Shown here: positions 3,604-31,100 of the stretch, one piece after another | Numbering within the stretch: position 1 is the stretch's first letter | Layout of the letters: the number at the start of each line of letters is the position of its first letter | Virus record (IMG/VR): IMGVR_UViG_3300009104_000066 | Span: 1-33,997 of that record | DNA length: 33,997 nucleotides | Source: a virus | Strand: one strand, 5' to 3' | Notes under the pieces: model-generated | What the model was told of the DNA's origin: nothing | What the model saw: the letters and a program-made list of their open reading frames with translations, nothing else | Database searches by the model: none | Made by a program: the position numbers and the translations under genes

Positions 3604-5178
3604 ATGGAATATAATCAACCTAGCTTAATTGTTAAAGATTTAAATTTTGGCAATGATGCTAAAACAAAGGTAATTTTAGGTGTGGATAAACTAGCTAAGG
3701 CAGTCAAATCCACCCTAGGTGCCTCTGGGAAGTGTGTAATATACGAAGATGCCAGGGGCAAACCGGTGATAACAAAAGACGGGGTAACGGTAGCAGAATC
3801 CGTTGTCTTACTTGATCCGGTTGAAAATATGGGGGCTACATTAATAAAAGAAGCTGCTAATAATACAGTAAAAGAAGCCGGCGACGGAACAACTACTGCT
3901 ATAGTATTAGCAGAATCTTTATTGAAAAATATAGAAGAAGAAGGTGAGCATAATGTCTCAATAAGAGAAATTAAAGAAGGTGTCCAATCAGGGTTTAAAA
4001 AGGTAAAAAAATATCTTGATAAAACTAGTATTGAAGTTAAGGGCAATACTCTGAAACATGTTAGTACTATAAGCTGCAATAATGATAGTACATTAGGTAA
4101 TATTATAGCTGAAGCATATGAGAAAGTTGGAAAAGATGGTGTAGTTTTAATGGAAGAGTCGCAAGACGAAACAACATATACAGATATAGTAAATGGTGTA
4201 AAATTAGATTGTGGGCTAACATCACCACATTTAATTACAGATAAAGATAAACAACGCGCTGTGTTAGAAGAACCACGCGTATTAATTGTATCTTCACCTA
4301 TCCCTAATATACGTAAAATTCAAAATATACTAGAATTTATTATAAAAGGTAAAGTGCCTTTATTATTAGTAGCGGATGTTGATCAGCAAGTAAAATCTGC
4401 ACTACTAATGAATAAAGTAAAAGGAAATATTAATATAAATATTATAGATCCACCTGGTTTTGGTCCTAGCAAAAAAGATACAATAGAAGATCTTGCTTTA
4501 TTAACAGGGGCAAAAGTTATTAATGAAGAGTTAGGTGATGATTTAGAATTAATTGAACCAAGTTCTTTAGGTAGTGTTGAAAAAGCAGTTACAGATGATA
4601 ATTCAACTGTATTAACTTTATACAATACTAATAATAATGTGAAAGAGCGTATTAAAGATATTAATAACAAAATAAAGAAAGAAACAAAAAATCCTTTATT
4701 TAAAAAGAAATTACAACAACGATTAGCAATGTTATCAGGATCTGTTGGTATTATTAAAGTAGGTGCTGATTCTAAAGTAGAATTAAAAGAGAAGAAAGAT
4801 AGAGTTGAAGATGCTATCTATGCTACAAAAGCAGCGTTAAAAGAAGGTATTGTTCCTGGAGGTGGAATTGCTCTTTTAAACGCAGTTGATGAATTAAAAA
4901 TAGAAAATATTGGGGAGAAAATACTAGCAGAGGCCATAAAATCTCCATTTATTACTATAATGGCAAACGCAGGTATTGAAAACTACGAAATACCTACCAC
5001 CAAAGGTATTGGATTTAATGTAATTTCCGGGAATCAAGTTGATATGATTAAATCTGGAATCGTAGACCCCGTCTTAGTTACTAAAACTGCATTAAAAAAT
5101 GCGGTGAGTGTTGTTTCTACTATAGTTTCTGCTGGATGTGTAATTTCTAATGTAAGAGTAAATCATGAAAGCGGTTAA
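3604..5178 (+). CDS. groEL: Phage-encoded chaperonin GroEL
   Basis: This is a full-length group I chaperonin of 524 residues (E. coli GroEL has 548). The ATP-site signatures are present: TLGASGK at 37-43, TKDG with Asp59, GDGTTTA at 93-99 with Asp94, GGG at 419-421, and RVEDAIYAT with Asp403, equivalent by eye to E. coli Asp52, Asp87 and Asp398. The apical domain is recognisable (NIRKIQNIL at 235-243, PPGFG at 283-287) but some GroES/substrate-contact positions appear changed. There is no C-terminal GGM tail. It should form a ring that folds viral or host proteins, with capsid or fibre subunits the obvious clients. The downstream co-chaperonin gene overlaps by 14 nt. The 5' third is clearly more GC-rich than the rest. 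Confidence 0.95.
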   Translation: MEYNQPSLIVKDLNFGNDAKTKVILGVDKLAKAVKSTLGASGKCVIYEDARGKPVITKDGVTVAESVVLLDPVENMGATLIKEAANNTVKEAGDGTTTAIVLAESLLKNIEEEGEHNVSIREIKEGVQSGFKKVKKYLDKTSIEVKGNTLKHVSTISCNNDSTLGNIIAEAYEKVGKDGVVLMEESQDETTYTDIVNGVKLDCGLTSPHLITDKDKQRAVLEEPRVLIVSSPIPNIRKIQNILEFIIKGKVPLLLVADVDQQVKSALLMNKVKGNININIIDPPGFGPSKKDTIEDLALLTGAKVINEELGDDLELIEPSSLGSVEKAVTDDNSTVLTLYNTNNNVKERIKDINNKIKKETKNPLFKKKLQQRLAMLSGSVGIIKVGADSKVELKEKKDRVEDAIYATKAALKEGIVPGGGIALLNAVDELKIENIGEKILAEAIKSPFITIMANAGIENYEIPTTKGIGFNVISGNQVDMIKSGIVDPVLVTKTALKNAVSVVSTIVSAGCVISNVRVNHESG

Positions 5179-5422
5179 TTATTATATTGTTGTTGAGAAA
5201 ATTAAAGAACAACAAAAAGCGATAGAAGGATTAATTCTCACTGAAGATCTTGATACAGAAAATCGATTTGTTAGAGGTAAAATAATTACAGTTGGTAATT
5301 TAGTAGAGGGCCTTAACAGCGAAGATATTGTTTATTATGATAAAGCTACAGGTCATGGTATAACATGGAATGGAAAATTATACCATGTAATTAAAGTTGG
5401 TGATGTAGTTTTAGTAGAATGA
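5165..5422 (+). CDS. groES: Phage GroES-like co-chaperonin
   Basis: This 85-aa protein aligns along most of its length with GroES (about 97 aa in E. coli). It starts with a beta strand (YYIVVEKI), then has a mobile-loop-like segment EGLILTEDL whose LIL at 23-25 matches the GroES IVL contact tripeptide, then RGKIITVG, DIVYYD and a final VGDVVLVE strand. It is shorter in the roof region. It begins inside the groEL reading frame (14-nt overlap), so the two are probably translationally coupled in the order groEL-groES, the reverse of most bacterial operons. It should cap the phage GroEL ring, as T4 gp31 replaces host GroES. Confidence 0.85.
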   Translation: MKAVNYYIVVEKIKEQQKAIEGLILTEDLDTENRFVRGKIITVGNLVEGLNSEDIVYYDKATGHGITWNGKLYHVIKVGDVVLVE

Positions 5423-8738: not shown

Positions 8739-11700
8739 ATGGCAATACCATTTCTACATCCGATAGGGAATATAAACATATCTGACGGTACGCCTCAACT
8801 GAAGTTGACGGATACATCCTCTTCCGCCACGACGACTCTCACGCTCGATGGGGTCAATCTCACTTTACAAAATCTCGGAACAGACGGTGACTTTACTATT
8901 ATAGGTAAAGATGGGTCTAGTAATATAAATCTTCTTGCATTTGATACATCTGAGGGAGGTGCTGCGACTTTTGCAGGGGATGTTGCATTAACAGGAAGTG
9001 GTGATAAAATAATATCTGCAATTTCAAGCGATGATGATGCAACATTATTTTTAAGTGGAGCTGGTAGTGGGAAAGATGTACATATTGTTTATGGTAATGA
9101 TAGAGATTTGTTTATATCAAAATCGTCAAGTTCTACAGCTACAAGCGAGGGAACACCAGTTCTAACATTAGGGGGAAATTCTAACGCAACTTTTGCAGGA
9201 AATGTAATATCTAAAGATACTTTTTATTTAGAAAATGGTAGTGGAAATAGATGGCAAATGCTATTTGACACTAATGCTTTTAATTTAAGATATTATAATG
9301 GTAGTAGTTGGAGCGCAGATGCTTTTGCGATAGACACATCAAATAATGCAACTTTTGCAGGGAATATACTTTTAGATGGAACTAATCAAATTCATTTTGT
9401 GGCACAAAGTGGCGAAAGTAATACAGAAGCTATGAGAATCACTAGAAGTAGTGATAAAATGTATTTTACTTATGGAACAAACGCGGGGGATGAAGCATTT
9501 TATATAAATAGTGATGGTACAGTAAAATTTGAAGAAAATGCAACTTTTGCAGGTAGTGTTGGAATTAGTGGTGCTGATGCTAGTAGTTATAATGCAAACG
9601 GTGATAATTTAGTAATAGCCGGGTCAGGAAACGTTGGGATGACAATATCAAGTACAAACAGTAGTGATAGTAATGTATTCTTCGCTGACGGTACTAGTGG
9701 TGCTGATGCTTATAGAGGTATATTAAGATACACTCATGATGATAATGGTTTTGATTTTTATACTAATGCTACTCTTGCTCTAAACTTAGATTCATCACAA
9801 AATGCAACTTTTGAAGGGAATGTAACTATTGAAGGGAGTTTAGCATTAGGTGAAGCAGATACAGCATCTGGTCATATTAACGCTAAAGAGTTGATGACAT
9901 TTAATATTGATACAGATAATGATGATACTAATAGATATTTTGGTTGGTATACCAATGGTGCAGATGGTAGTGGTACTGAACTTTTAAAAATATTAGAAAC
10001 TGGTGATGCAACTTTTGCAGGATCAATTTTAGTAGGTGATTCAACTGCAGAAGCTGGTCATGGTATAGAAATACAAAAAGATGGTGGTGGAGCTTCTATA
10101 GGATTATTGATACATAACCAAGGAACCGACGCGGCGGATGATTCTAAAATTTCTTTTGAAACACAGGGTCAAAGAGATATTAGTATAGGAATAGATAGGA
10201 GTGATAGTTTCTTTAAAATATCCCATAGTGGTAGTTTAGGAACAAATGATTGGCAAACGTTTGATGGTTCTGGTAATGTAACTTTTGCAGGGGATATTGA
10301 ATTAGCTGACGGGCATAACACACTTACATTAACAAGAAATTTAGGAGCTGGTGTAGCGCCTGGAACAAGTTTAGGTTTTATACAATTTAATAACGATGCG
10401 TCAACAAGTTCAGATGATAGAGCCGCGATAATTGAAGGGGTTACAGATGGTGGTAGTGCTAATGCTACTGGTGGTAGTTTCAAATTTTGGACTAAAAAAC
10501 CAGCAGATGGTGTTAACGCTGTTGCATTAACTCTTGATTCATCACAAAATGCAACTTTTGAAGGGGATGTTAATGTTAAAAACGCTAGCACTAGAATTAT
10601 ATCTTTAAATTACGAAGACAGTATAAACAGTATTATATCACATAGTGGCACAAACTTTGGCTTAGAAAGTTTAAACGTAAGGGGTGATAATATTTATTTC
10701 TATACTGATTATGATAGTGGCACGCCAAAAGGTAATTTAACATTAACGTTAGACAGTAGTCACAATGCAACTTTTGCAGGTGATGTTAGTTTAGGAGCAA
10801 CAGATAAAGGTTCAAACACAACTCTTTCTTTATATACTAATGACACATATAAGACGACTGTAAAATATCAAGAAACAAGTGGATATTATGGATTTTCAAC
10901 AGAGTATGATGGTAATGGTAATGCTTTTACAATAAGAAGACATTCTAATAGTCAAGCGGGGGTAGCTGTTATGACTATGAATAGAGATGACGCAAATACA
11001 ACTTTTGAAGGTAACATTAATGGAAAAGGATATTTAAATCTTCAAAATGGTTATGGCAGCGCAAATGGTATATACTTATATGGTAATCCTGCTATGTATA
11101 GAGAGGATGTTAACACTTTGCATTTTCCATTAAATGTAGCAACTTTTGCAGGAAATGTTACCGCTTCATCTGGTACTGGTCATTTTTCCAATGTTAATTC
11201 TTCATCTTATCAACTAAATGGTACTTATGTGATGGATTCTAGTAGAAATTTAGTTAATATAGCTGCAATTACAACTACAGGTGCTGCAACTTTTGGAGGT
11301 GATGGAATTATAAACACTGCAAATAAAGCCTTAAAAGTTAGGTATTCTACAGGAAGTGCAAGTTATGAAGGAAGACTACGATGGGCAGGTTTACAACTAG
11401 GAAACAATGGTACTAATAGAATAGTAGCTGGAAATACTGTCGCTGGGGGTTCTTTAGCAATATATACAAACAATACTAATGATGGTTCTGATTATAATGT
11501 AACACCAGATGGAGCACATGCAGCTTCGTTTCAAGCAGATGGTGATACTATTTTACATCAAAACGTAGGTATAGGAACTTCAAGTCCAGGTGCAAAATTA
11601 AATGTATATACAGGTGGTAATAGTATTGCAGCAGCAGCAGTATTACAACATGATACTTTTGGGGCAGATAGAAAAGTTGGTTTAGGATTTGAATTAGGTA

Positions 11701-14700
11701 GTACGCAAATTAAAGCTGCTGTAGGTTTTATCTCAGATGACTCAAGCCCAGGAACATACGGTAGAGGAAATTTAATATTCTGTGTAGATAGTAATGATGA
11801 CAACGCACCAGTTGGACATGCTGATGAAAAACTTCGTATATCACACACTGGTACAGCAACTTTTACAGGGACAGTAAACGCAGCAGCACTTACTATAACA
11901 GCGGGTGCTGGTAAATTAGCTTTTGCTAACGATGCAGCTAATTATTATGCTTATCAAAAGGATGCATCGGATGGAATTGTAGTTTCAGGGTATTATGGAG
12001 TTTCATTAGCACACCGAGGTAATATGAAATTAGGTGTTGGTTCGGGTGGTATTAGTGTAACAGGAACACAATCTGTTTCTGGTGAGGCAACTTTTAATGG
12101 TAAACTAAAAATTTATACTGATGGTACATTAAATTGGGGAGCAGCTTATGACTATGGGAGATTAACTCACGACACTAATGTAGCAATAGTTGCTGGATTA
12201 TCTGGTAAAGCGCTTGTATTAAGGTCTAATGGCTCAGGAAGTAGCAATACAGCTTTAACATTAGATACATCTCAAAATGCAACTTTTGCAGGGAAAGTTT
12301 TTAGTAAACATAGAAAAGAATGTACTGCTAGTATTAGTAATTCTTATGTAAAAATATATCAGATATCTACAAATTCATCTCAAATGGCTTCGTTAGTAAG
12401 AATAACAGCGACAACACATGGAACTGGCCATGTTGCTGCTTGGACGGCTGATGTAATAGTTAACCACTATCAAGATGTAACTATAAAATCACATGGTGGA
12501 GAATATACACAAGGTACTATAAAAGTAGAGAGTAATAATAACGGGGAATATCATTTATCATTTAAATCTACTTCAGCTAACGCTTCTACATATTATTTTA
12601 CTATTGAGTCACTTTCTAGCGAACAAGATATAACAGTTAATCCTACAAGTACACCGGCTACTAATACAGTGCATGAACATGTTTTAAACTTTGGTACTAA
12701 TATAACTGGAGAAGGGGGTACTTTAAAGCATAATTTTGGAGGAACTGTAGATGGTACAGCGATAGGTGGTAATTCAACCGCATTAAGAGGAACTTCATTA
12801 ACTATAGATTCAAGATTAACTTTACATGATGGAGAAATAGATAATAATTCAGGGGATTTAACTTTAGATTCAGCAGGAGATATTATATTAGATGCAGGTG
12901 GTAATGAAATAAAATTAAAAACTGGTGGTTCAGAGTGGGGACAAATATATAATTCATCAAGTGATCTTGCAATTTATTCTTCTGTTTCTGACAAGGATAT
13001 AATATTTAAAGGCAATGATGGCGGTAGTTTAATTACCGCTTTAACATTAGACATGTCGGAAGGTGGAAATGCAACTTTTGCAGGTAGAGTTGGGGTGAAT
13101 GGTGCTCCAACTAATACGTTTTCAATAAAAGATGGTTCTAATGCTAATTTTGAAATGGGATGTAATTCAGATAGTGTATTTCTACAGTCATATAATAGAA
13201 CTAGTTCCGCTTGGGCAGGCATACAGTTTAATACCAATGGTGAAACAATGAGATTAACAGCTGATGGAAGATTGGGAATTGGAATCGCAACCCCACAAAC
13301 TCACCTTCAGGTTAACGGTACCCATTCTAATTTTAATGCACACATTGGTCAAGGTCAAGATAATGGTGATGGGCGTTGGGGAGGTATTTCACTAGGTTAT
13401 GCAGAAAACGGTAATGCTAATTATAGAAAAGTTGGTATTGTAGCAGAAGCACATGGTGACGGCGCTGCTAGACAAGATTTCCATATACTAGTAGATACTG
13501 CTAATGATGGTAATAGTGCTGTACTTGGTGATTCAAAGTTCAAAATTGATGGATTAACAGGTAATACAACTTTTGCAGGGAATGTTGGAATAGCTGGGAG
13601 TGCAGATTCGGTTTATTCCTTAGCGGTTAATTCTACCGATGAAGATGCTGTACAAATATATAATTCCACAGACGGATTAGATGCTTTAATCACATTCCAA
13701 AACCCAGGCGGAACTTTAGGTAGAATACAAGGACTTGATAACGGTGGATTAGGATTTGATACAGGGAATAATGCTGGTGGGATAAATTCTAATGTACTTC
13801 ATTTAGGTAACGGAGGAAATGCAACTTTTTCAGGTAGAGTAGTAACAGGAAACACAACAATAGGAAATTGGAGTAATTCAGATAGAATAGAAACAAGCGG
13901 TGATGAACTTACTTTAGGAACCCATAGCAACCATGATGTTATTATTAATAGACAAGCTAGTGCAGCTTTAACTTTCTCATCTGGCGCGGCAACTTTTGCA
14001 GGTGAAATTACTTCAGGTGACGATATGAACACGCCTACTAAACTTGTAGTTGGTGAAAGTGCAACAGCAGAGGTAAGAATTAAAAAGACAGATGCAGGGT
14101 ATGGTAAAGTTAGTTGGTATAATAATAATGGTAGTAGTGCTCAAGCTGCTTATATATCTTTAGCCTCTGATGAGCATTTATATTATTATCTTCCATCTAG
14201 TAAATCTCATATATTTTATGGTAGTGGTAGTGAAAGATTCAAAATAGGGGGTGATGTTGAAGTTACGGGATCAACTGATTTTGCAATTCCAACAGGTAGA
14301 AGAATTAAATTTGATGGTGCTGGTGGTCATACTTACATAATGGAAGAAGGTGACAACAATATGAAATTTTATGTTGGTGGTACCGAACACATGGCTGTAG
14401 GTGGTGGTGATGTATGGATTCAGCAACCAATGCGAATTACGCAGTATATTTATCATACAGGTGATCTTAGTACACAGATAAATATGGAAACTAGCCAGAT
14501 AACAATAGCAACATCTGGTGGATCTCATATACAAATAAATAATGATGAAAATATCTATTTCAGAACCAATGGTACTAATAGATTTAGAATGGATACGCAA
14601 GGTACATTTACCGCCACACAAGATATTATAGCTTACGGATCTGTTTCTGATAAATCATACAAAGAAAATATCAAACCAATAACTGGAGCATTAGATTTAG

Positions 14701-14957
14701 TTGGTAATCTTAAAGGCGTTACTTTTGATTGGAAAGAAGATACCGACACTAATAAAATGGTTGGTATAAAAGAAGATATAGGTTTTATAGCCCAAGATGT
14801 ACAAGAGGTATTACCAACGCTTGTAAGAGAAAATGAAGATGGAAAACTGTCTTTAAGAGACAAAGGTATAGTACCAGTATTAGTTGAAGCTATAAAAGAA
14901 TTAAAAGCAGAAGTAGAAGAACTAAAAAAACATAAATGCGATGGCTGTACCAAGTAG
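8739..14957 (+). CDS. Giant tail fibre with C-terminal peptidase S74 chaperone
   Basis: At 2072 aa this is the longest complete gene in the window. It opens MAIPFLHPIGNI like the protein at 7079, then runs through many beta-structured segments separated by about 19 copies of an ATFAGNV-type unit. One segment has VGIGTSSPGAKLNV, typical of phage fibre shafts. The last 110 residues are an intramolecular chaperone auto-processing domain (peptidase S74): SDKSYKENIKPI with Ser1970 and Lys1975 as the expected catalytic dyad, GFIAQDVQEVLP, then a coiled coil at the end. The chaperone should trimerise the fibre and then cut itself off. Bases 8781-8890 are much richer in GC than the rest. The last 17 nt overlap the next gene. 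Confidence 0.85.
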   Translation: MAIPFLHPIGNINISDGTPQLKLTDTSSSATTTLTLDGVNLTLQNLGTDGDFTIIGKDGSSNINLLAFDTSEGGAATFAGDVALTGSGDKIISAISSDDDATLFLSGAGSGKDVHIVYGNDRDLFISKSSSSTATSEGTPVLTLGGNSNATFAGNVISKDTFYLENGSGNRWQMLFDTNAFNLRYYNGSSWSADAFAIDTSNNATFAGNILLDGTNQIHFVAQSGESNTEAMRITRSSDKMYFTYGTNAGDEAFYINSDGTVKFEENATFAGSVGISGADASSYNANGDNLVIAGSGNVGMTISSTNSSDSNVFFADGTSGADAYRGILRYTHDDNGFDFYTNATLALNLDSSQNATFEGNVTIEGSLALGEADTASGHINAKELMTFNIDTDNDDTNRYFGWYTNGADGSGTELLKILETGDATFAGSILVGDSTAEAGHGIEIQKDGGGASIGLLIHNQGTDAADDSKISFETQGQRDISIGIDRSDSFFKISHSGSLGTNDWQTFDGSGNVTFAGDIELADGHNTLTLTRNLGAGVAPGTSLGFIQFNNDASTSSDDRAAIIEGVTDGGSANATGGSFKFWTKKPADGVNAVALTLDSSQNATFEGDVNVKNASTRIISLNYEDSINSIISHSGTNFGLESLNVRGDNIYFYTDYDSGTPKGNLTLTLDSSHNATFAGDVSLGATDKGSNTTLSLYTNDTYKTTVKYQETSGYYGFSTEYDGNGNAFTIRRHSNSQAGVAVMTMNRDDANTTFEGNINGKGYLNLQNGYGSANGIYLYGNPAMYREDVNTLHFPLNVATFAGNVTASSGTGHFSNVNSSSYQLNGTYVMDSSRNLVNIAAITTTGAATFGGDGIINTANKALKVRYSTGSASYEGRLRWAGLQLGNNGTNRIVAGNTVAGGSLAIYTNNTNDGSDYNVTPDGAHAASFQADGDTILHQNVGIGTSSPGAKLNVYTGGNSIAAAAVLQHDTFGADRKVGLGFELGSTQIKAAVGFISDDSSPGTYGRGNLIFCVDSNDDNAPVGHADEKLRISHTGTATFTGTVNAAALTITAGAGKLAFANDAANYYAYQKDASDGIVVSGYYGVSLAHRGNMKLGVGSGGISVTGTQSVSGEATFNGKLKIYTDGTLNWGAAYDYGRLTHDTNVAIVAGLSGKALVLRSNGSGSSNTALTLDTSQNATFAGKVFSKHRKECTASISNSYVKIYQISTNSSQMASLVRITATTHGTGHVAAWTADVIVNHYQDVTIKSHGGEYTQGTIKVESNNNGEYHLSFKSTSANASTYYFTIESLSSEQDITVNPTSTPATNTVHEHVLNFGTNITGEGGTLKHNFGGTVDGTAIGGNSTALRGTSLTIDSRLTLHDGEIDNNSGDLTLDSAGDIILDAGGNEIKLKTGGSEWGQIYNSSSDLAIYSSVSDKDIIFKGNDGGSLITALTLDMSEGGNATFAGRVGVNGAPTNTFSIKDGSNANFEMGCNSDSVFLQSYNRTSSAWAGIQFNTNGETMRLTADGRLGIGIATPQTHLQVNGTHSNFNAHIGQGQDNGDGRWGGISLGYAENGNANYRKVGIVAEAHGDGAARQDFHILVDTANDGNSAVLGDSKFKIDGLTGNTTFAGNVGIAGSADSVYSLAVNSTDEDAVQIYNSTDGLDALITFQNPGGTLGRIQGLDNGGLGFDTGNNAGGINSNVLHLGNGGNATFSGRVVTGNTTIGNWSNSDRIETSGDELTLGTHSNHDVIINRQASAALTFSSGAATFAGEITSGDDMNTPTKLVVGESATAEVRIKKTDAGYGKVSWYNNNGSSAQAAYISLASDEHLYYYLPSSKSHIFYGSGSERFKIGGDVEVTGSTDFAIPTGRRIKFDGAGGHTYIMEEGDNNMKFYVGGTEHMAVGGGDVWIQQPMRITQYIYHTGDLSTQINMETSQITIATSGGSHIQINNDENIYFRTNGTNRFRMDTQGTFTATQDIIAYGSVSDKSYKENIKPITGALDLVGNLKGVTFDWKEDTDTNKMVGIKEDIGFIAQDVQEVLPTLVRENEDGKLSLRDKGIVPVLVEAIKELKAEVEELKKHKCDGCTK
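8781..8890 (+). other. GC-rich island in the 5' end of the giant fibre gene
   Basis: By hand count this 110-bp stretch has 57 G or C bases (52%), whereas flanking DNA is strongly A/T-rich. Codons such as CTC, ACG, TCC and GCC cluster here and are rare elsewhere in the gene. The reading frame is unbroken. It could be a recently recombined segment joined to the MAIPFL anchor. Confidence 0.6.
8961..14000 (+). repeat. About 19 dispersed GCAACTTTTGCAGG repeats in the giant fibre
   Basis: A core close to GCAACTTTTGCAGG, encoding ATFAG, recurs near 8964, 9185, 9348, 9540, 9804, 10008, 10277, 10551, 10767, 10998, 11139, 11285, 11856, 12087, 12280, 13071, 13566, 13820 and 13989. Conservation is visible in the bases, not only the protein. 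A longer 30-bp identity occurs at 9789-9818 and 10536-10565. Spacing is irregular (about 140-800 bp), so each unit is a boundary between variable beta segments rather than a tandem repeat. Confidence 0.8.
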
Positions 14958-16515: not shown

Positions 16516-16791
16516 ATGAATAAAAAAGTAGAAGACGCAAAAGTCGAAAAAATCACTGATGAGCAGTTAACTGAACTTCAGGGGCATGTAAACAGAATCA
16601 ACGCAGCTCAATTACAATTGGGTCAACTTGAATCTCAAAAACACGGTGTTGTAAACGCTATACCTCAACTTCAAAAACAATTGAAGGATTTCCAAGATAA
16701 AATGGAAGAAGAGTATGGTAAAGTAAGTATTAATATACAAGACGGTACAATACAGGAAATACCTGAAGAAGATGGGCAAGCTAATACGTAA
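16516..16791 (+). CDS. Coiled-coil hypothetical protein, 91 aa
   Basis: Residues 15-70 are predicted to form a long helix with heptad-like Leu/Ile spacing and many Gln (TDEQLTELQGHV, LQLGQLESQ, LQKQLKDFQDKMEEEY), followed by a short beta stretch and an acidic tail. No enzyme motif. It may be an oligomeric virion-assembly factor. Its 3' end overlaps the next gene by 20 nt. Confidence 0.7.
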   Translation: MNKKVEDAKVEKITDEQLTELQGHVNRINAAQLQLGQLESQKHGVVNAIPQLQKQLKDFQDKMEEEYGKVSINIQDGTIQEIPEEDGQANT

Positions 16792-16993
16792 GATAAGTAT
16801 TGGTAAAGATTATAAAAATGAAGCTATGCACTACGCCGTTGGACAAGAAGTCTACGGCGGGCATACTATTTGTGATATAATAGAAGAAGATTCTAAATAC
16901 AGCATTTATATTAAAAAAAATAATGAGGTATTACCTTGGAAAGATTTTAATAAAAATATGGCTGTATCTATAGAATACAACTTAGAATATTAA
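16772..16993 (+). CDS. Hypothetical protein, 73 aa
   Basis: A small beta-rich protein (MGKLIRKISIG, YAVGQEVYGGHTI, YSIYIKKNNEVLPW) with no recognised domain; the pattern suggests a small beta barrel. It overlaps the preceding gene by 20 nt and its final A is the A of the next ATG, so all three are probably co-translated. It directly precedes the tandem GroES-like gene. Function unknown. Confidence 0.65.
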   Translation: MGKLIRKISIGKDYKNEAMHYAVGQEVYGGHTICDIIEEDSKYSIYIKKNNEVLPWKDFNKNMAVSIEYNLEY

Positions 16994-17592
16994 TGCGTGC
17001 ATTATATAATTTTATAGTTGAACCAATAGGGGAAAGGTATAATAATAAAAAACAAATTGGGGGTAAAGAATTAATATTAAACACAGAAGTGTTTAACCAT
17101 CAATATGTTAATAGAGAAGCTAAGATTATAGCTGTACCTAAATTACTTGATAATGATTTGCAAATTGGTGATACGGTTTTATTACATCACAATGTTTTTA
17201 GAAGATGGCATAATATGCGTGGCATAGAAAAAAACAGTAGAGGATTTATTAACGAAAACACTTATTCAGTAAATACTGACCAAATATACGCGTATAAAAG
17301 AAATGATAAATGGAACGCTTTAGATGGATATTGTTTTGTAAAACCAATTAAATCATACGATAAATTAAAAGTTGATAAAGAACAACCTTTAATTGGTATT
17401 ATTAAATATGTTGATAAAACTCTAAAAAATATAAAAGTCAATGATTTAGTGGGTTTTAGGCCAAGTAGTGAATTTGAATTTATTATTAATAACGAAAGAT
17501 TATATAGAGTATTAACAAAATTTATTACAATTAAATATGAATATCAAGGACAAGAAGAAGAATATAATCCAAGCTGGTTACAAAGCAGTTGA
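16993..17592 (+). CDS. Tandem (two-barrel) GroES-like protein, 199 aa
   Basis: Both halves resemble the Cpn10/GroES barrel. In the first (1-102), FIVEPIGE opens the fold, GGKELILNTE at 23-32 resembles a mobile loop with LIL at 27-29, then REAKIIAVP and IGDTVLLHHN match the GroES strands RGEVLAVG and VGDIVIFND. In the second (110-185), GYCFVKPI, IGIIKYV, VNDLVGFRPSSEFEFIINNERLYRVLTKFITIKYE matches the GroES C-terminal half, but no mobile loop is evident. A two-barrel co-chaperonin architecture is known in chloroplast Cpn20. It sits just upstream of the packaging genes, far from groEL. Sequence similarity is weak, so it might be a barrel protein with another role. Confidence 0.6.
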   Translation: MRALYNFIVEPIGERYNNKKQIGGKELILNTEVFNHQYVNREAKIIAVPKLLDNDLQIGDTVLLHHNVFRRWHNMRGIEKNSRGFINENTYSVNTDQIYAYKRNDKWNALDGYCFVKPIKSYDKLKVDKEQPLIGIIKYVDKTLKNIKVNDLVGFRPSSEFEFIINNERLYRVLTKFITIKYEYQGQEEEYNPSWLQSS

Positions 17593-17809
17593 TGAGTTAA
17601 TTAAAGTGGCGAAAGAAAAAATAGTTGATTCAGAAGATGATGTTTCTGCTGATAGATTAAAAAATGCGGCTGCTACAAAAAAGTTAGCTATATTTGATGC
17701 TTTTGAAATACTAAACAGAATTGAGGAAGAAAAAAATATATTAGAAGATAAACCAACTACTCAAAAAGAAAATACTTTTCAAGGGTTTGCTGAAAAGAGA
17801 TCTAAATAA
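17537..17809 (+). CDS. Helical protein upstream of terminase, 90 aa
   Basis: A largely helical, charged protein (AVDELIKVAKEKI, ADRLKNAAATKKLAIFDAFEILNRIEEEKNIL). Its place immediately before the large terminase, with its last base forming the A of the terminase ATG, makes a small-terminase or packaging-accessory role possible, but no DNA-binding motif is clear. It overlaps the upstream gene by 56 nt in the +1 frame, much longer than other overlaps in the window. The overlap might be real or the true start may lie further in. Confidence 0.6.
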   Translation: MNIKDKKKNIIQAGYKAVDELIKVAKEKIVDSEDDVSADRLKNAAATKKLAIFDAFEILNRIEEEKNILEDKPTTQKENTFQGFAEKRSK

Positions 17810-20031
17810 TGTACGAACAAACGTTATATAAAATTATTGAACCAGTAAGAATTAATACACTTAAACGGTTAAATAAGAGCAAGAAATGGAAATATGGTTA
17901 TAATAAAGAAAATGATATTATAGTCATAAGTAAAACAGGACAAATAGGTGAGATATATGAGATACAAAATCTTAAAATAGCTCTACCACCTACTACTAAA
18001 ATTTATAGCAGATCAAAAAAGAAAAAAGAACAATACTGGGAGCAGTTCGAATATCCAAAAGCATTGAAAAATGTTAAAACCATTTTTGATTGGAGAGATT
18101 ATCCCAATGAACATAAAGATAAATGGTTTGATTATATCAATGAGGAATTCAATCGTAGGGAAAATGGTTTTTGGTTTAATAATAATGGTAAGCCTACTTA
18201 CATTACCGGTACTCACTATATGTATCTTCAGTGGTCAAAAATTGATGTGGGTGCTCCTGAATTTAGAGAATCAAATAGATTATTCTATTTATTTTGGGAA
18301 GCTTGTAAAGCAGATAAACGTGCTTACGGAATATGTTATCTCAAAAATAGACGATCTGGTTTCTCGTTTATGGCAAGTGCGGAAACAGTTAACGCTGCTA
18401 CTATCTCGAGCGATTCAAGATTTGGGATATTATCAAAAACTGGTTGGGATGCTAAAAAGATGTTTACAGATAAGGTTGTACCAATATCTGTTAATTACCC
18501 GTTTTTCTTTAAACCGATTCAGGATGGTATGGATCGACCAAAAAGCGAACTTGCATATAGGGTCCCGGCTCAAAAGTTTACTAGAAAGAAACTACAGGTT
18601 AATGAGAAAATTGAAGAAATTGTAGGTTTAGATACAACCATTGATTGGAAAAACACTGGTGATAACAGTTATGACGGGGAAAAACTTAATTTACTAGTAC
18701 ATGATGAGAGTGGAAAATGGGAGAGACCTGATAATATACTAAACAATTGGAGAGTAACAAAAACATGCTTACGATTAGGTAGTAGGGTTATTGGTAAATG
18801 TATGATGGGTAGTACATCAAATGCATTAGATAAAGGTGGAGATAATTTTAAAAAATTATTTAGAGACTCTGACGTAACAAAAAGAAATAAAAATGGGCAA
18901 ACTAAATCTGGATTATATAGTTTGTTTATACCGATGGAATGGAATTATGAAGGATTTATGAATAGGTATGGTATGCCAGTTTTTGATACACCATCAGATC
19001 CAACATATGATTTCTATGGAGAATTAATCGATACTGGCGTTGTAGATCACTGGGAAAATGAAGTTGAAGGATTAAAAAATGATCCTGATGCTTTAAATGA
19101 ATTTTATAGACAATTTCCAAGATCTGAAGAACATGCTTTTAGAGACGAAACTAAAAATAGTATATTTAATCTAGCTAAAATATATGAGCAAATAGATTTT
19201 AATGAAGAAACAAGTAGTGAATCTCAAATAACCACTGGAAATTTTCAGTGGATTAATGGAGTAAAGGATACCCAGGTTATATTTTATCCAGATTTAAAAG
19301 GAAGGTTTAATGTATCTTGGGTACCACCTAAACATCTACAAAATAATATTATTGTTAAAAATGGTATTAAATATCCTGGTAATGAACACATGGGCGCTTT
19401 TGGTTGTGATAGTTATGATATATCAGGAACTGTTGATGGTAAAGGATCTAAAGGTGCTTTACATGGTTTAACTAAATTTAGCATGGAGGATACACCTCCA
19501 AATCATTTCTTTTTAGAATATATAGCTAGACCACAAACAGCAGAAATATTTTTTGAAGACATGCTTATGGCTTTACATTTTTACGGAATGCCATTATTAG
19601 CAGAAAATAATAAACCTCGATTGCTATATTATTTAAGAAGAAGAGGTTATAGAGGTTTTAGTATGAACAGACCTGATAAAATTTGGAATAAATTGTCTAT
19701 AGCGGAAAAAGAAATAGGTGGAATTCCAAACACAAGTGAGGATATAAAACAAGCACACGCCTCAGCGATTGAAATGTATATACAGGAACATGTTGGTATT
19801 AAACCCGATGGTTCACATGGAAACATATATTTTAATAAAACATTAAATGATTGGAGTAGATTTGATATAAATAAAAGAACAAAATTTGATGCAACAATAA
19901 GTTCCGGTTTAGCAATAATGGCTTGTAATAGACATTTATATAAACCAAATGCAAACATACAAAAAGAAAAAGTAAATATTAATATTGCTAAATATAAAAA
20001 CACTGGCAATAGATCACAAATTATAAAATAA
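17809..20031 (+). CDS. terL: Terminase large subunit
   Basis: This 740-aa protein has the order of a phage packaging motor. The ATPase domain has a deviant Walker A at about 178-187 (LKNRRSGFSF, lacking the GKT/S end), Walker B LNLLVHDE with Asp299 and catalytic Glu300, and a coupling motif GSTSNA at 334-339. The C-terminal RNase H-like nuclease is suggested by GAFGCDSYDISG with Asp534 and Asp537. It should cut concatemeric DNA and drive it through the portal encoded by the next gene, 2 nt downstream. It is longer than most TerL proteins (usually 450-650 aa), mainly through an extended N-terminus of about 170 residues. Confidence 0.85.
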   Translation: MYEQTLYKIIEPVRINTLKRLNKSKKWKYGYNKENDIIVISKTGQIGEIYEIQNLKIALPPTTKIYSRSKKKKEQYWEQFEYPKALKNVKTIFDWRDYPNEHKDKWFDYINEEFNRRENGFWFNNNGKPTYITGTHYMYLQWSKIDVGAPEFRESNRLFYLFWEACKADKRAYGICYLKNRRSGFSFMASAETVNAATISSDSRFGILSKTGWDAKKMFTDKVVPISVNYPFFFKPIQDGMDRPKSELAYRVPAQKFTRKKLQVNEKIEEIVGLDTTIDWKNTGDNSYDGEKLNLLVHDESGKWERPDNILNNWRVTKTCLRLGSRVIGKCMMGSTSNALDKGGDNFKKLFRDSDVTKRNKNGQTKSGLYSLFIPMEWNYEGFMNRYGMPVFDTPSDPTYDFYGELIDTGVVDHWENEVEGLKNDPDALNEFYRQFPRSEEHAFRDETKNSIFNLAKIYEQIDFNEETSSESQITTGNFQWINGVKDTQVIFYPDLKGRFNVSWVPPKHLQNNIIVKNGIKYPGNEHMGAFGCDSYDISGTVDGKGSKGALHGLTKFSMEDTPPNHFFLEYIARPQTAEIFFEDMLMALHFYGMPLLAENNKPRLLYYLRRRGYRGFSMNRPDKIWNKLSIAEKEIGGIPNTSEDIKQAHASAIEMYIQEHVGIKPDGSHGNIYFNKTLNDWSRFDINKRTKFDATISSGLAIMACNRHLYKPNANIQKEKVNINIAKYKNTGNRSQIIK

Positions 20032-20033
20032 AT

Positions 20034-22439
20034 ATGATAGATTCAACGACAAAAGGACATTTTCCAAGTCAAGTAGTTAGTGATGCAGAAAAACGTAGTT
20101 ACAAGTACGGTTTAAAAATAGCACAGGCTATTGAGCATGAATGGTTGGGACATAGAGGTAACACGAGTAGATTAAGAAGTAATCAAAATAATTTTCACAA
20201 ACTAAAACTTTATGCTAGAGGTGAACAATCTATCCAAAAATATAAAGATGAATTATCTATTAATGGTGATTTATCTTATCTTAATTTAGACTGGAAACCA
20301 GTACCTATTATACCTAAGTTTGTTGATATAGTTGTAAATGGTATAGCTGAAAGAACATATGATATAAAAGCATATTCGCAAGATCCACATGGTGTTAGTA
20401 AGAGAACAAATTATATGGAATCAATTTTACGTGATATGCAAACGAAAGATTTAAATGATTTTGCATCTCAGGCGTTTGGAATTGACTTGTATGAGAATGA
20501 TAAAGATAAATTACCAGGAGATGAAGAGGAATTAGCAATTCACATGCAACTTAATTATAAGCAAAGTATAGAACTAGCAGAAGAACAAGCTCTCAATACG
20601 TTATTAGATGGTAATAATTATGAATTAACAAGAAAACGTTTGTATTATGATTTAACAGTATTAGGTATTGGGGCTGTTAAAAATAATTTTACTACGTCAG
20701 AGGGTATTAAAGTAGAATATGTTGATCCAGCTAATTTAATATATTCACATACAGAATCACCATACTTTGATGATATATATTATGTTGGTGAAGTTAAAAG
20801 TCTTCCAATTAATGAACTGAAAAAACAATTTCCTGATTTAACAAATGAAGAATTATTAGAAATACAATCTAATGGTAATGGAATGAGGGAAAGTAGAGGA
20901 TTAGATAATACTGATGATAATATTGTTAGGGTTTTATATTTTAATTACAAAACATACATGAATGATGTATATAAAGTAAAGAAAACTATATCTGGCGCAT
21001 CAAAAATAATACCAAAAGATGATTCATTTAATCCCCCACAAGATGATGAAAGATTTAAAAAGCTATCTAAATCTATTGAAGTATTATATGATGGAGCATT
21101 AGTATTAGGTACTGAAAAGTTATTGAAATGGGAATTATCTAAAAATATGATAAGACCTAAGAGTGATTATACTAAAGTAAAAATGAACTATAGTATTGTT
21201 GCTCCAAGAATGTATAAAGGTAAAATAGAATCTTTAGTTGGTAGAATAACAGGGTTTGCTGACATGATTCAATTAACACATTTAAAATTACAGCAAGTAT
21301 TAGGTAAGATGGTACCTGATGGAGTATATTTAGACGCTGATGGTTTAGCTGAAATTGATCTTGGCAATGGAACTAATTATAATCCACAAGAAGCGCTCAA
21401 TATGTTTTTCCAAACTGGTAGTGTTATTGGTAGATCAATGACACAAGAAGGTGATATGAATCCAGGTAAAGTACCTATTCAAGAAATTGCCAGCAATAGT
21501 GGTGGTAATAAATTACAAAGTTTAATTGCTACATATAATTATTATCTCCAAATGATAAGAGATGTGACCGGATTGAATGAAGCTAGAGACGCTAGTACAC
21601 CGGATAAAAACGCATTAGTTGGTATTCAAAAACTTGCAGCTGCTAACAGTAATACAGCTACAAGACATATACTACAAGCTGGTTTATATTTAACTGCAGA
21701 AACCGCAGAGTGTTTATCATTAAGAATTTCTGATGTATTAGAATACTCTCCAACAAAAGATGCGTTTGTTCAAGCTATTGGTGCACATAATGTTGGAACA
21801 TTAGAAGAAATGAAAAATCTTCATTTGTATGATTTTGGTATATTTATTGAATTAGCACCTGATGAAGAAGAAAAACAATTACTTGAAAATAATATACAAG
21901 TTGCGTTATCAAAAGAAAATATAGAACTTGAAGATGCTATAGATATTAGAGAAATTAAAAATGTTAGATTAGCAAACCAGTTGTTAAAAATAAGAAGAGC
22001 TAAAAAAATAGATAAAGACCAACAGATTGCGCAGCAAAATATTCAAGCACAAGCAGAGGCAAACATGCAATCGCAACAAGCTGCTATTCAAGCTGAAACT
22101 CAAAAACAGCAAATATTAGCGCAGAATGAATTGCAACTTGAAGAAGGAAAAGCAGGGTTCGATATGCAAAAACTACAACAAGAAGCAACATTAAAGAAAG
22201 ACTTAATGAATCATGAATTTGAATTAAATATGCAGTTGAAACAAATGGAACTTGATACATTAAAGCAAAAAGAAACTAATAAGGAGGATAGAAAAGATGA
22301 AAGAACTAGAATTCAAGCATCTCAACAATCTGAATTAATAGAACAAAGAAATCAAAATTCACCACCTAAAAACTTTGAATCAAAAAACAATGATGTTTTA
22401 ACTGGTGATTTTGACCTGGGCATGTTTGAACCTAGGTAA
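20034..22439 (+). CDS. Portal protein
   Basis: This 801-aa protein follows terL directly and precedes the scaffold and capsid genes, the standard portal position. Its N-terminal half shows portal-like features: a helical clip/wing region, VPIIPKFVDIVVNGIAER and a segment reading VEYVDPANLIYS. The central region (DMIQLTHLKLQQVLGKM, RDVTGLNEARDAS) fits the crown and channel helices. The C-terminal 140 residues are a Gln/Glu/Lys-rich coiled coil (IAQQNIQAQAEANMQSQQ...), as in long podovirus portals. A dodecameric ring at the unique capsid vertex is expected. No catalytic motif applies. Confidence 0.8.
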   Translation: MIDSTTKGHFPSQVVSDAEKRSYKYGLKIAQAIEHEWLGHRGNTSRLRSNQNNFHKLKLYARGEQSIQKYKDELSINGDLSYLNLDWKPVPIIPKFVDIVVNGIAERTYDIKAYSQDPHGVSKRTNYMESILRDMQTKDLNDFASQAFGIDLYENDKDKLPGDEEELAIHMQLNYKQSIELAEEQALNTLLDGNNYELTRKRLYYDLTVLGIGAVKNNFTTSEGIKVEYVDPANLIYSHTESPYFDDIYYVGEVKSLPINELKKQFPDLTNEELLEIQSNGNGMRESRGLDNTDDNIVRVLYFNYKTYMNDVYKVKKTISGASKIIPKDDSFNPPQDDERFKKLSKSIEVLYDGALVLGTEKLLKWELSKNMIRPKSDYTKVKMNYSIVAPRMYKGKIESLVGRITGFADMIQLTHLKLQQVLGKMVPDGVYLDADGLAEIDLGNGTNYNPQEALNMFFQTGSVIGRSMTQEGDMNPGKVPIQEIASNSGGNKLQSLIATYNYYLQMIRDVTGLNEARDASTPDKNALVGIQKLAAANSNTATRHILQAGLYLTAETAECLSLRISDVLEYSPTKDAFVQAIGAHNVGTLEEMKNLHLYDFGIFIELAPDEEEKQLLENNIQVALSKENIELEDAIDIREIKNVRLANQLLKIRRAKKIDKDQQIAQQNIQAQAEANMQSQQAAIQAETQKQQILAQNELQLEEGKAGFDMQKLQQEATLKKDLMNHEFELNMQLKQMELDTLKQKETNKEDRKDERTRIQASQQSELIEQRNQNSPPKNFESKNNDVLTGDFDLGMFEPR

Positions 22440-23735: not shown

Positions 23736-25175
23736 ATGGCAATTACTAGTCCAAGTCCGTACAGTGTAAGGCCACATCCAATTAAAGCAACACTTAGTTC
23801 AAATTATATTGATTTTACGTCAAGTGATACTGCAGGATGGGCACAACAATATGTACCGGATTTATTCGAAAAAGAAGCTGAAGTTTTTGGTAACAGAAGC
23901 GTTTCAGGTCTTCTTGAAAAAGTCGGAGCTGAAGAAGCAATGACTGCTGATCAAGTTATTTGGTCGGAACAAGGTAGATTACATCTATCTTATTTAGCTA
24001 CCCATGATGCAAATACTGATGGTAAACTTGTTATCACTCAAGATGCTGATGGCAATTCAATTGATGCAGCTGATGAAGGTGCTCATTCAATTAGAGTTGG
24101 AGATACTATTTTAGTATCAGATGCTAACGCGACGTTAAGATGTTATGTTAGTGCTGTAAACGTTGGTGGTGATGATGATGTTATACAGGTTTATCCTTAT
24201 TCCCACGCGACTTTAGATGCTGGTGGAATAGCGAAAGACCAAGCAACTATTAAAGTAATGGTGTTTGGTTCTGAATTCGCAAAAGGCGTTGCAGGACAAA
24301 CTGAAGCTGTTGAACCACAGTTCAAACAGTTTAACAACAAACCAATCATAATTAAAGATATGTATCAAGTCTCTGGATCTGATGCTTCTCAAATTGGTTG
24401 GGTTGAAGTAAGTGGTGAAGATGGTCAAAATGGTTACCTATGGTATTTAAAAGCTGAAGGTGATACTAGAACTAGATTTACTGATTATTTAGAAATGGCA
24501 ATGATTGAAGCAGAAAAAAGTGTTTCTGGAGCAAACGCTGCAGTTCCTGATGGTACTGAAGGTTTATTTAAAGCTATCAAAGACAGAGGACACCAAGCTT
24601 CTTTAATTGATGGCGGGAATGCAGGTAATGATTTAGCTGAATTCGATTTAATATTAGCAGAATTTGATAAAAATGGTGCTATTGAAGAAAACATGATGTA
24701 CTTAGGTAGAGAATCATCTCTTGCAGTTGATGATATGCTTGCGAGTCTTGACGGTGGAAGCGCTGGATCAGGATCAGCATACGGTGTATTCAACAACTCT
24801 ATGGACATGGCATTAAATTTAGGTTTCAAAGGATTTAGAAGAGGTTCTTATGACTTCTACAAGTCTGACTGGAAATACTTAAATGATGCTGCTACAGGCG
24901 GATTCACAGCTGATGCTGCTGGAAACGTCAGAGGTGTTATTATACCAGCAGGTGTTTCATCTGTTTATGACCAAAATCTAGGTAAAAACATAAGACGTCC
25001 ATTCTTACACGTAAGATATAGATCGTCTGCAGCTGATGACAGAAGGTTCAAAACATGGACCACTGGTTCTGTTGGAGCAAATATCACAAGTGATATTGAT
25101 AAAATGGCAGTACATTATCTGTCAGAAAGATGTTTAGTGGTACAAGGAGCTAATAACTTCGTGTTACTTAACTAA
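23736..25175 (+). CDS. Major capsid protein
   Basis: This 479-aa protein follows the scaffold and ends at a strong terminator-like hairpin, as expected for a highly expressed capsid gene. The sequence is balanced and globular: an N-terminal arm (PYSVRPHPIKATLSSNYIDF), a helix-rich region with DLFEKEAEVFGNRSVSGLLEKVG, long central domains, and a C-terminal segment PFLHVRYRSSAADDRRFKTW ending SERCLVVQGANNFVLLN. These features suit an HK97-fold capsid protein, but I cannot name a specific family from motifs. Length fits T4- or marine-phage-type capsids. It is a likely client of the phage GroEL/GroES. Confidence 0.8.
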   Translation: MAITSPSPYSVRPHPIKATLSSNYIDFTSSDTAGWAQQYVPDLFEKEAEVFGNRSVSGLLEKVGAEEAMTADQVIWSEQGRLHLSYLATHDANTDGKLVITQDADGNSIDAADEGAHSIRVGDTILVSDANATLRCYVSAVNVGGDDDVIQVYPYSHATLDAGGIAKDQATIKVMVFGSEFAKGVAGQTEAVEPQFKQFNNKPIIIKDMYQVSGSDASQIGWVEVSGEDGQNGYLWYLKAEGDTRTRFTDYLEMAMIEAEKSVSGANAAVPDGTEGLFKAIKDRGHQASLIDGGNAGNDLAEFDLILAEFDKNGAIEENMMYLGRESSLAVDDMLASLDGGSAGSGSAYGVFNNSMDMALNLGFKGFRRGSYDFYKSDWKYLNDAATGGFTADAAGNVRGVIIPAGVSSVYDQNLGKNIRRPFLHVRYRSSAADDRRFKTWTTGSVGANITSDIDKMAVHYLSERCLVVQGANNFVLLN

Positions 25176-28134: not shown

Positions 28135-31100
28135 ATGCCTGAATTAAAACATAACTTTATACAAGGTCGAATGAATAAAGATCTTGATGAGAGATTAGTA
28201 CCTAAAGGAGAATATAGAGATGCTATGAATATAGAAGTGGCTTCTTCTGAAGGGTCTGATGTTGGGTCAGTTCAAAATGTATTAGGCAATACAGTTCAAA
28301 GTACAAAAGATAATAGTCCATTATCTACATGGTCAAGTAATTATATTTCTAATCTTACAAACGTACAATGTATAGGTTCTATCTGTGATTATGAAAATAA
28401 CAAAATTTATTGGTTTATAACTAGTGACGAGGCTGATTGTATTGCTGAATATAATGAAGCAACAAAAGTTGTAGCACCAGTTTTAGTTGATGTATATACA
28501 ACCACATCAGTGGGTTCATCGTCTGAATCAAGTGGTACTTCACTTACAATAGCAGTTGCTAATGCAAATTTAAGAGTAGGTATGGTTGTATCTGGCCACG
28601 CTAATATTGTAGCGGGAACAAAAATAACAAATATTAATGGTACAACTATAACTGTAGATACAGCTTTTACAGATAATTTACCGGCAAATCATGATAGTTA
28701 TACATTTACAGGCGAAAGGGTATTAAACTTCAGTGTTGATTACAAGATAACAGGAGTTAATATTATAACTGGGGATAGAAAGGATGGATACGCTGCAAAC
28801 GACGCGTTGTTATTTTGGACAGATAACAGATCTGAACCAAAACAAATTAATATAACAAAATTTAAAGAAGATCATACAACTGCAGATTTTAATACAAACA
28901 CACAGATAAATGGTGTTGATGTAAAAGAGTCTGATATTACTGTTATAAAAAAATCTCCTTTAACAGCGCCAACATTAGCAATGTCTGCTACAAAACGAAC
29001 TGGAAATTTAGTTGGTACTGGAAACAACCCTGCTTTTTGCTCTTTTAATTTTTCAACTAATGTAGGACTTGGGGCATTAAAGCATGATGCAAACGCGCTA
29101 TTATCATCTATAACAACAAATTCATCTGACGCAACAACTAGTGTTAATGGTGTTGGAGTTGATTCTAGTGGATCTGCAGCTGGAACAGGCTTAAACTTAA
29201 ATGTAACAGTTGCTGGTGGTGCTGTAACAGCAATAACAGTTGTAGCTGCTAATGACGGGGAAAATTATAAATCTGGAGAGGTGATTAAAATTGATAATGC
29301 GGATATTGGAGGTTCAACTGACGTTGAAATAACGTTACAAGCTGATGATTTTATTGGAAACGAAACTTATAAACTTTACCAACCTGGAGATCAGTTAACA
29401 TTTGATTTTAATCCAATACCAAATTTTAGAGAAGGAGATGTAATTATTTTTTCTGGATCAAAAGAAGTTGATAATGTTACAGAAAAGTTTGATGTTAGGG
29501 TAAAAGTTGTTGAATTATTAAACGAAGCCCAGCAAATAATAGGAGAGATATTAAGTATAAGTAGTAAAGTACCAACTCAAAACGCTGATATTGTGTATGA
29601 GGTTGTTTTAGACGAGGGAGATCCATTATTTGAATTAAAATTTCCTAGGTTTGCATATAGATGGAAATATAAGGATGGACAATATTCTTGCTTTTCTCCA
29701 TTTTCTGAAATAGCATTTTTACCAGGTGAATTTGATTATGCGTCCACGGATGGGCATAATAAAAGTATGGTAAATACACTAAAAACATTAACAATAAATG
29801 GTTTTCAATCTCAACCTAATGATGTTGATGAAGTTGATATATTATATAAAGAATCAGATAGTACATTAGTTTACATTGTTGATACATTAAAGGATAATGA
29901 AACATCATTCACTTTAGAAAAAGAACTTTTTAAAGGTTTAGTAGAGGAAAATCAATTATTAAGACATTTTGATGCGATACCTAAAAAAGCAAAAGCACAA
30001 GAAGTTGTAGGTAGTAGAATTGTTTATGGTAATTATACACAAAACTACATGATGGATAAAAATAATTACCCTGAAATAATAATTACATCAACAAAATCAC
30101 CTTATAACCCTAGTCAATCTTTCGTTGGAGATGGTAGCACAAAAACATTTACATTAACAACGGGTTATTTTGCAACATTACCAGATCAAGTAGAAGATAT
30201 TAAAATTTATATAGATGAAGAGGAAACAACAGAAAACTTTTCATACGCGTCACCTGTTGTAACGTTCGAAACTGCACCCGCAGATAACAGTATTGTAAAA
30301 ATTGTAGATAATAAATTAAACAAACCACAGAAATCAATAAAAACATTAAGAACATATCAAGCTGGTGTTACTTATATGGATAAATACGGTAGAACATCTC
30401 CTGTTTTTACAAACCCTAAAGCTTCAGAGTATTTAGAGTTATCAAAATCCGAAGGTGTAAATTCATTTGAATTAGCATTAGCTAACTCACCACCTGATTG
30501 GGCAACACATTATAAGTTTTATATAAAAGAAGGTAGTAGTGAATATTATAATCTAATACTAGATAGGTTTTATATTGCTGAAGATGGTAATTTATGGTTA
30601 TCATTTCCATCGTCTGATAGAGATAAAATACAGAAAGGGGATTTTATTATATTAAAAAAAGAACACGATAGTGATTTACCCGTAACCAGTAATAATAAAT
30701 TTAAAACTCTAGACATAAAAAATTCAGCACCAGAATTTATAAAAAATAGAAAATTTGCAATAGCATCAGCAGGCGTTAAAACCAGAAGTAATGGAGTAGA
30801 TAAACCAAACATAGGCGCTGTATCTTTTCAGTTTGTTGGGCCAGGAGATGATGAGCATGAAAGTTTTGCGTCAGCTTTTACTGGCGATAGTTTTATTATT
30901 ATAAAACACGGTAGCAATACAAGTAAATTTTATCGTGTTGAGAATGGTGGTTTAACTGGTGATGATGATGGAAGTGGTGTTAGTAACAGCATATATAAAG
31001 TAACATTAGCAGAACCTTTATCTGAAAACGATAGTTTTTTAGATAATATTGATAGTAATAGTGAAGCGTTTACTATAAATGTTTACAATGATAGAGTAGA

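Follow-up and report, generated by a model that had tools for sequence, protein, structure and literature searches.

The gene at 16993..17592 of the window (33,997 bases, a virus record of IMG/VR in its entirety; features whose positions are given with two dots lie on the + strand) encodes a tandem co-chaperonin, a 199-aa protein (P0001) that, on the evidence of structure prediction and homology, is almost certainly made of two successive Cpn10 barrels. This protein probably acts as a lid for GroEL, to which we infer that it binds. The best overall explanation of its role, about as likely as not in our estimate, is that tandem chains and the phage's one-barrel GroES together make up a mixed, roofless lid for GroEL, whether that of the phage or that of the host, with virion-assembly proteins as clients.

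A conserved phage gene family

The open reading frame has exactly the extent originally predicted, from an ATG at 16993 to a stop codon at 17590-17592, the ATG overlapping the stop of the preceding ORF as TAATG. The gene is under purifying selection, with pairwise dN/dS values of 0.16-0.23 against five relatives and constraint in both halves; along with the presence of at least 598 relatives of the protein in IMG/VR viral contigs, this excludes a chance ORF. Residues 1-175 match positions 1-192 (of 200) of the PHROG 13932 'co-chaperonin GroES' model (E 4.7e-20), a profile that the phi18:3 orthologue matches at E 5e-102. The public members of this family (phi18:3 gp096, phi40:1 gp089, Calle_2 gp13 and Elemovirus gp30) share the profile, the length and the place upstream of terL; their identity with the window protein is no more than 33-38%. 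A Pfam search with the latter returned no match at E<=1, Cpn10 (PF00166) included, and a family HMM run against PDB sequences gave a chance match at E 0.1 and nothing else.

The C-terminal tail ending EEEYNPSWLQSS (17539..17589) is found in the window's marine clade only, and its coding sequence is shared with the next ORF, which overlaps the gene at 17537-17592 (56 bp), so that the conservation of EEEYNPSWLQSS may partly reflect shared coding. A bacterial origin of the gene was considered and dropped, since the 17 matches in question are confined to MAG contigs and a phage terL follows at all loci with downstream room.

Two Cpn10 barrels in one chain

AlphaFold2, given a 58-sequence alignment, models the window protein as two Cpn10 barrels with a mean pLDDT of 86.8 and a pTM of 0.80. 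In a Foldseek search of the PDB this model matches best with 7ekq_R (Cpn20 co-chaperonin, in an entry that bears the description CrClpP-S2c), aligned over 205 columns, that is over the full length (E 6.7e-6, TM 0.58); rank 2 is another chain of that entry, and the 7ekq chains are followed by GroES, Cpn10 and gp31 chains with TM scores of about 0.3 for the 199-aa query, the level to be expected of a single barrel. The full-length TM score against Cpn20, set against that of the one-barrel chains, implies a similar barrel-barrel layout, which agrees with the likeness to Cpn20 that had been suggested from the sequence.

Barrel 1 (residues 1-104, 16993..17304) was also modelled alone (pLDDT 88.6), and its 28 best Foldseek matches in the PDB are all Cpn10, GroES, gp31 or Cpn20 chains. 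Barrel 2 (residues 105-182, 17305..17538) is recognised from the AlphaFold2 strands at 106-182, from hhalign and from the C-halves of orthologues, which score 28.2 (phi40:1), 32.6 (phi18:3), 26.4 (L169) and 26.9 bits (L170) against Pfam Cpn10. The curated cut-off of 21.1 bits is passed by these orthologue C-halves only, the window protein being below detection, so that the profile comparison proposed with the original prediction succeeded for the relatives and failed for the protein itself. In hhalign comparisons the C-half matches the phage GroES at E 4e-6 and the N-half does so weakly (E 6e-4, probability 29); nothing significant was obtained between N-half and C-half, and the internal repeat is thus invisible by sequence. 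A Cpn10 HMM built without tandem proteins retrieves tandems of the phi38:1 type (E 2e-4 to 1e-3). The next fold behind Cpn10, at lower probability, is the GroES-like domain of alcohol dehydrogenases and quinone reductases. Each half is thus Cpn10, in accordance with the two tandem barrels originally read from the sequence, and searches of PHROGs, BFVD and the PDB (Foldseek) for a better match in a virion family found none.

Mobile loops and roof hairpin

In barrel 1, residues 18-41 (17044..17115) make up the mobile-loop region; they include the lowest pLDDT blocks (73) of the N-terminal barrel and contain the motif GGKELIL at residues 23-29, with the hydrophobic tripeptide LIL at 27-29 (17071-17079). 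Residues 27 and 28 are hydrophobic in 201 of 202 relatives, which bears out the mobile-loop character that had been attributed to this motif. Common versions are LIL, FIV and LIV, and the Elemovirus loop NGLILN resembles GGIVL of GroES.

In barrel 2, comparison of relatives locates the site of a lost mobile loop at residues 119-134 (16 aa, 17347..17394). The region is just 16-18 aa long in 197 of the 202 relatives and 25-27 aa long, with GSIIVP, NGLRVI or PSLIYIP, in the other five, the phi38:1 group and phi18:3, which keep the second mobile loop where the window's clade is without it. The simplest reading is a two-loop ancestor whose second loop was lost in most members. The original description of the second barrel as lacking a loop is therefore correct for the window protein, the lack being a secondary loss and not a defining feature.

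The roof hairpin is absent from both tandem barrels, which have 10 and 8-13 residues in its place as compared with 16 in E. coli GroES, and from the phage's own one-barrel GroES (7 residues as compared with 16). The other phage GroES sequences compared likewise have no roof hairpin. T4 gp31, which folds gp23, is also without roof loops and has a wider ring opening (PMC6318259).

Gene neighbourhood

At every locus with room to tell (147/147), terL lies downstream of the tandem gene. In the window the two are separated by a 90-aa ORF (17537..17809) that overlaps the 3' end of the tandem gene by 56 bp and, by its position, is a possible small terminase gene (its match to PHROG TerS, at E 0.24, is not significant). 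The terminase large subunit (TerL, 17809..20031; PHROG 6681, E 8.8e-171) and the portal protein (20034..22439; PHROG 6547, E 3.7e-143) follow, so the placement just upstream of terminase and portal was right. Further downstream, 23736..25175 encodes a virion structural protein (PHROG 13704, head and packaging, E 2.2e-99) that is a candidate major capsid protein and a putative client of the tandem lid. The same gene order is found in Elemovirus, MW202828, phi40:1 and Calle_2, and in phi18:3 with one intervening gene. The phi40:1 and phi18:3 orthologues carry no MS/MS structural flag, unlike the neighbouring portal and structural proteins, and the tandem protein is hence no obvious part of the virion.

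Directly upstream, and joined to the tandem gene by the TAATG junction, is a 73-aa ORF of unknown function (16772..16993) that is conserved with it at 183 of the 188 loci with upstream room; its product is a possible partner of the tandem protein. Two long ORFs were also seen in the window. One, of 2072 aa (8739-14957), is repetitive and tail-fibre-like, with a C-terminus that resembles, by eye, an intramolecular-chaperone (endosialidase-type) domain; the other, of 1954 aa (28135-33996), leaves the record at its right end.

Association with GroES and GroEL

The phage encodes its own chaperonin genes: groEL (524 aa, 3604..5178; Pfam Cpn60 E 1.2e-55, with full-length alignment to solved GroELs) and a one-barrel groES (85 aa, 5165..5422; Pfam Cpn10 27.8 bits, cut-off 21.1; PHROG 3188), the product of which is the probable ring partner of the tandem protein. 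The tandem gene is far from groEL, as had been noted, the latter ending (5178) 11.8 kb upstream; it is found 3-12 kb from groES, in a different gene cluster. Co-occurrence was assessed in those tandem-bearing records that reach 56 kb or more, 21 in all; they represent fewer independent lineages, as the phi18:3 relatives, the phi38:1 pair and the records resembling Elemovirus are nearly duplicates. A one-barrel GroES occurs in 21/21 and GroEL in 16/21; shorter contigs lacking groES start too near the tandem gene to contain it. The three-part set with groEL and groES that had been proposed is thus complete in the window, with the qualification that GroES is a more regular partner of the tandem protein than GroEL. 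The five records without phage GroEL that keep both co-chaperonins are phi18:3, three of its relatives and the 72.8-kb L169 record. This pattern fits a joint lid on host GroEL, and it may also be that GroES is retained for reasons of its own, apart from the tandem protein.

GroEL is known from phi38:1-like environmental genomes (PMC5332604), and the phi38:1 protein has been detected in infected cells (PMC13288928). In G028 (the record of L225), groEL appears to be broken into three pieces with an internal TAA (17709-19160), groES and the tandem gene being retained; this may be decay or a sequencing error. Leucines L234 and L259 of GroEL contact GroES and substrate. In apical helices H and I of the phage GroEL these positions (E. 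coli numbering), judged by eye, seem to be occupied by Q and K, and the two substitutions may match an altered lid.

A proposed mixed seven-barrel lid

In plants and algae, Cpn20 assembles with Cpn10 into functional hetero-oligomers that contain seven Cpn10 domains (Tsai et al., as reported in PMC3542282). In the mechanism that we propose, the two fused barrels would lie next to each other within a ring of GroES type, as in chloroplast Cpn20, barrel 1 contributing a GroEL-binding mobile loop and barrel 2, its loop lost in the window's clade, serving mainly as a ring-filling wall. Chains of two barrels cannot by themselves fill a ring of seven; three of them would therefore combine with one phage GroES (3x2+1 = 7) into a mixed, roofless seven-barrel lid that closes the GroEL of the phage or, where the phage has none, that of the host. 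We consider such a mixed ring with GroES about an even possibility, the stoichiometry of three to one being deduced from the seven-fold ring; a point against it is that this arrangement would give only about four mobile loops in the window's clade. Presumably expressed along with the genes for packaging and head, the tandem protein may help to fold virion-assembly proteins, the major capsid protein being the likeliest; late-gene position and the gp31 precedent point to such clients, and the gene position suggests a required role in major capsid protein folding in the manner of gp31. More tentative, and in our estimate somewhat short of an even chance, is the wider conclusion that phages independently evolved a mixed seven-barrel lid of the Cpn20/Cpn10 type, of three tandem chains and a single GroES, roofless, with loop-bearing and loop-less barrels alternating, and working with phage GroEL or else with that of the host.

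Tandem chains could also form a lid by themselves, homo-trimers or homo-tetramers (six or eight barrels) capping GroEL asymmetrically and alternating with a separate GroES heptamer that serves other clients. On their own, the Cpn20 proteins of plants and Plasmodium assemble chiefly into tetramers, and they function with GroEL (PMC3542282; review PMC5780408), and the location of the tandem gene and groES in separate gene clusters would suit such a division. This arrangement does not, however, require the strict accompaniment by one-barrel GroES that is seen even without phage GroEL, and with one loop per chain it would have only three or four loops; we regard it as unlikely.

Less likely still is the loss of GroEL binding altogether, the protein having been repurposed as an assembly or packaging factor working with TerL or portal. 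Its invariant position directly upstream of terL, its strong sequence divergence from Cpn10, the loss of one loop and an extra excursion in barrel 1 with a nearly invariant HHN motif would all be understandable in such a factor, but it retains a hydrophobic motif of the GroEL-contact type in all but one of the relatives, some of these (phi18:3, L169) have loops in both barrels, it co-occurs with GroES and GroEL, and its orthologues escape the MS/MS flags of their structural neighbours. A lid of two storeys, in which seven tandem chains deepen the chamber by stacking seven loop-less barrels above a loop-bearing ring, would have exactly seven loops and no roof hairpin between the storeys, but is very improbable given that the predicted arrangement agrees with Cpn20, where the two barrels adjoin within the ring, and that relatives looped in both barrels do not fit it.

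Relation to known co-chaperonins

Among the closest known systems is the Cpn20 of chloroplasts and apicoplasts. Like it, the phage protein has two head-to-tail Cpn10 barrels in a single chain some 200 aa long and is accompanied in its genome by a one-barrel partner of Cpn10 type; Cpn20 is also its best structural match, over the full length. The phage protein differs in being phage-encoded, in the loss of the second mobile loop from most members and in having no roof loops, whereas in apicomplexan Cpn20 each domain keeps both kinds of loop, mobile and roof (PMC3542282). As loops and roofs are not kept in both domains, we call the protein Cpn20-like in architecture and not a Cpn20. The window protein has no significant sequence similarity to Cpn20, and the resemblance is probably a case of convergence. 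T4 gp31 is also a roofless phage co-chaperonin of Cpn10 fold linked to head assembly, but it is a single-barrel homoheptamer acting on host GroEL, in contrast to the two-barrel chain with separate phage GroES and GroEL described here. With GroES/Cpn10 (PF00166) in general, the protein has in common the barrel fold and the mobile-loop motif of barrel 1, and it departs from them in its two barrels, its lack of roofs and of one loop, and its position below Pfam detection.

The original prediction knew of no tandem co-chaperonin in phages. As regards the family this does not hold, as database annotations already name members 'co-chaperonin GroES' or 'chaperonin Cpn10' (PHROG 13932, phi18:3 gp096, Elemovirus and Callevirus among them) and 'chaperonin cpn10' is listed with the Pervagoviridae core genes (PMC8776804). 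As regards the architecture it stands: our literature search, which covered part of the subscription journals, found no text on a tandem architecture in phages, on the resemblance to Cpn20, on the lost loop or on the strict co-occurrence with GroES. The observation itself is thus confirmed and its first interpretation partly supported.

In the literature consulted, tandem co-chaperonins are treated as a plastid speciality, and it has been debated how subunits of two barrels are accommodated in a ring of seven. The widespread phage family, with its constant one-barrel partner and its naturally occurring one-loop and two-loop variants, offers a small expressible system for this question. Next to gp31, it may be another way in which phages adapt the GroEL chamber to virion proteins, and it makes it possible to name hundreds of genes upstream of terL that have loose labels or none. 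The tandem model is also matched (TMq 0.73) by a viral protein of 304 aa in BFVD, A0A516L046, the length of which would allow for a third barrel.
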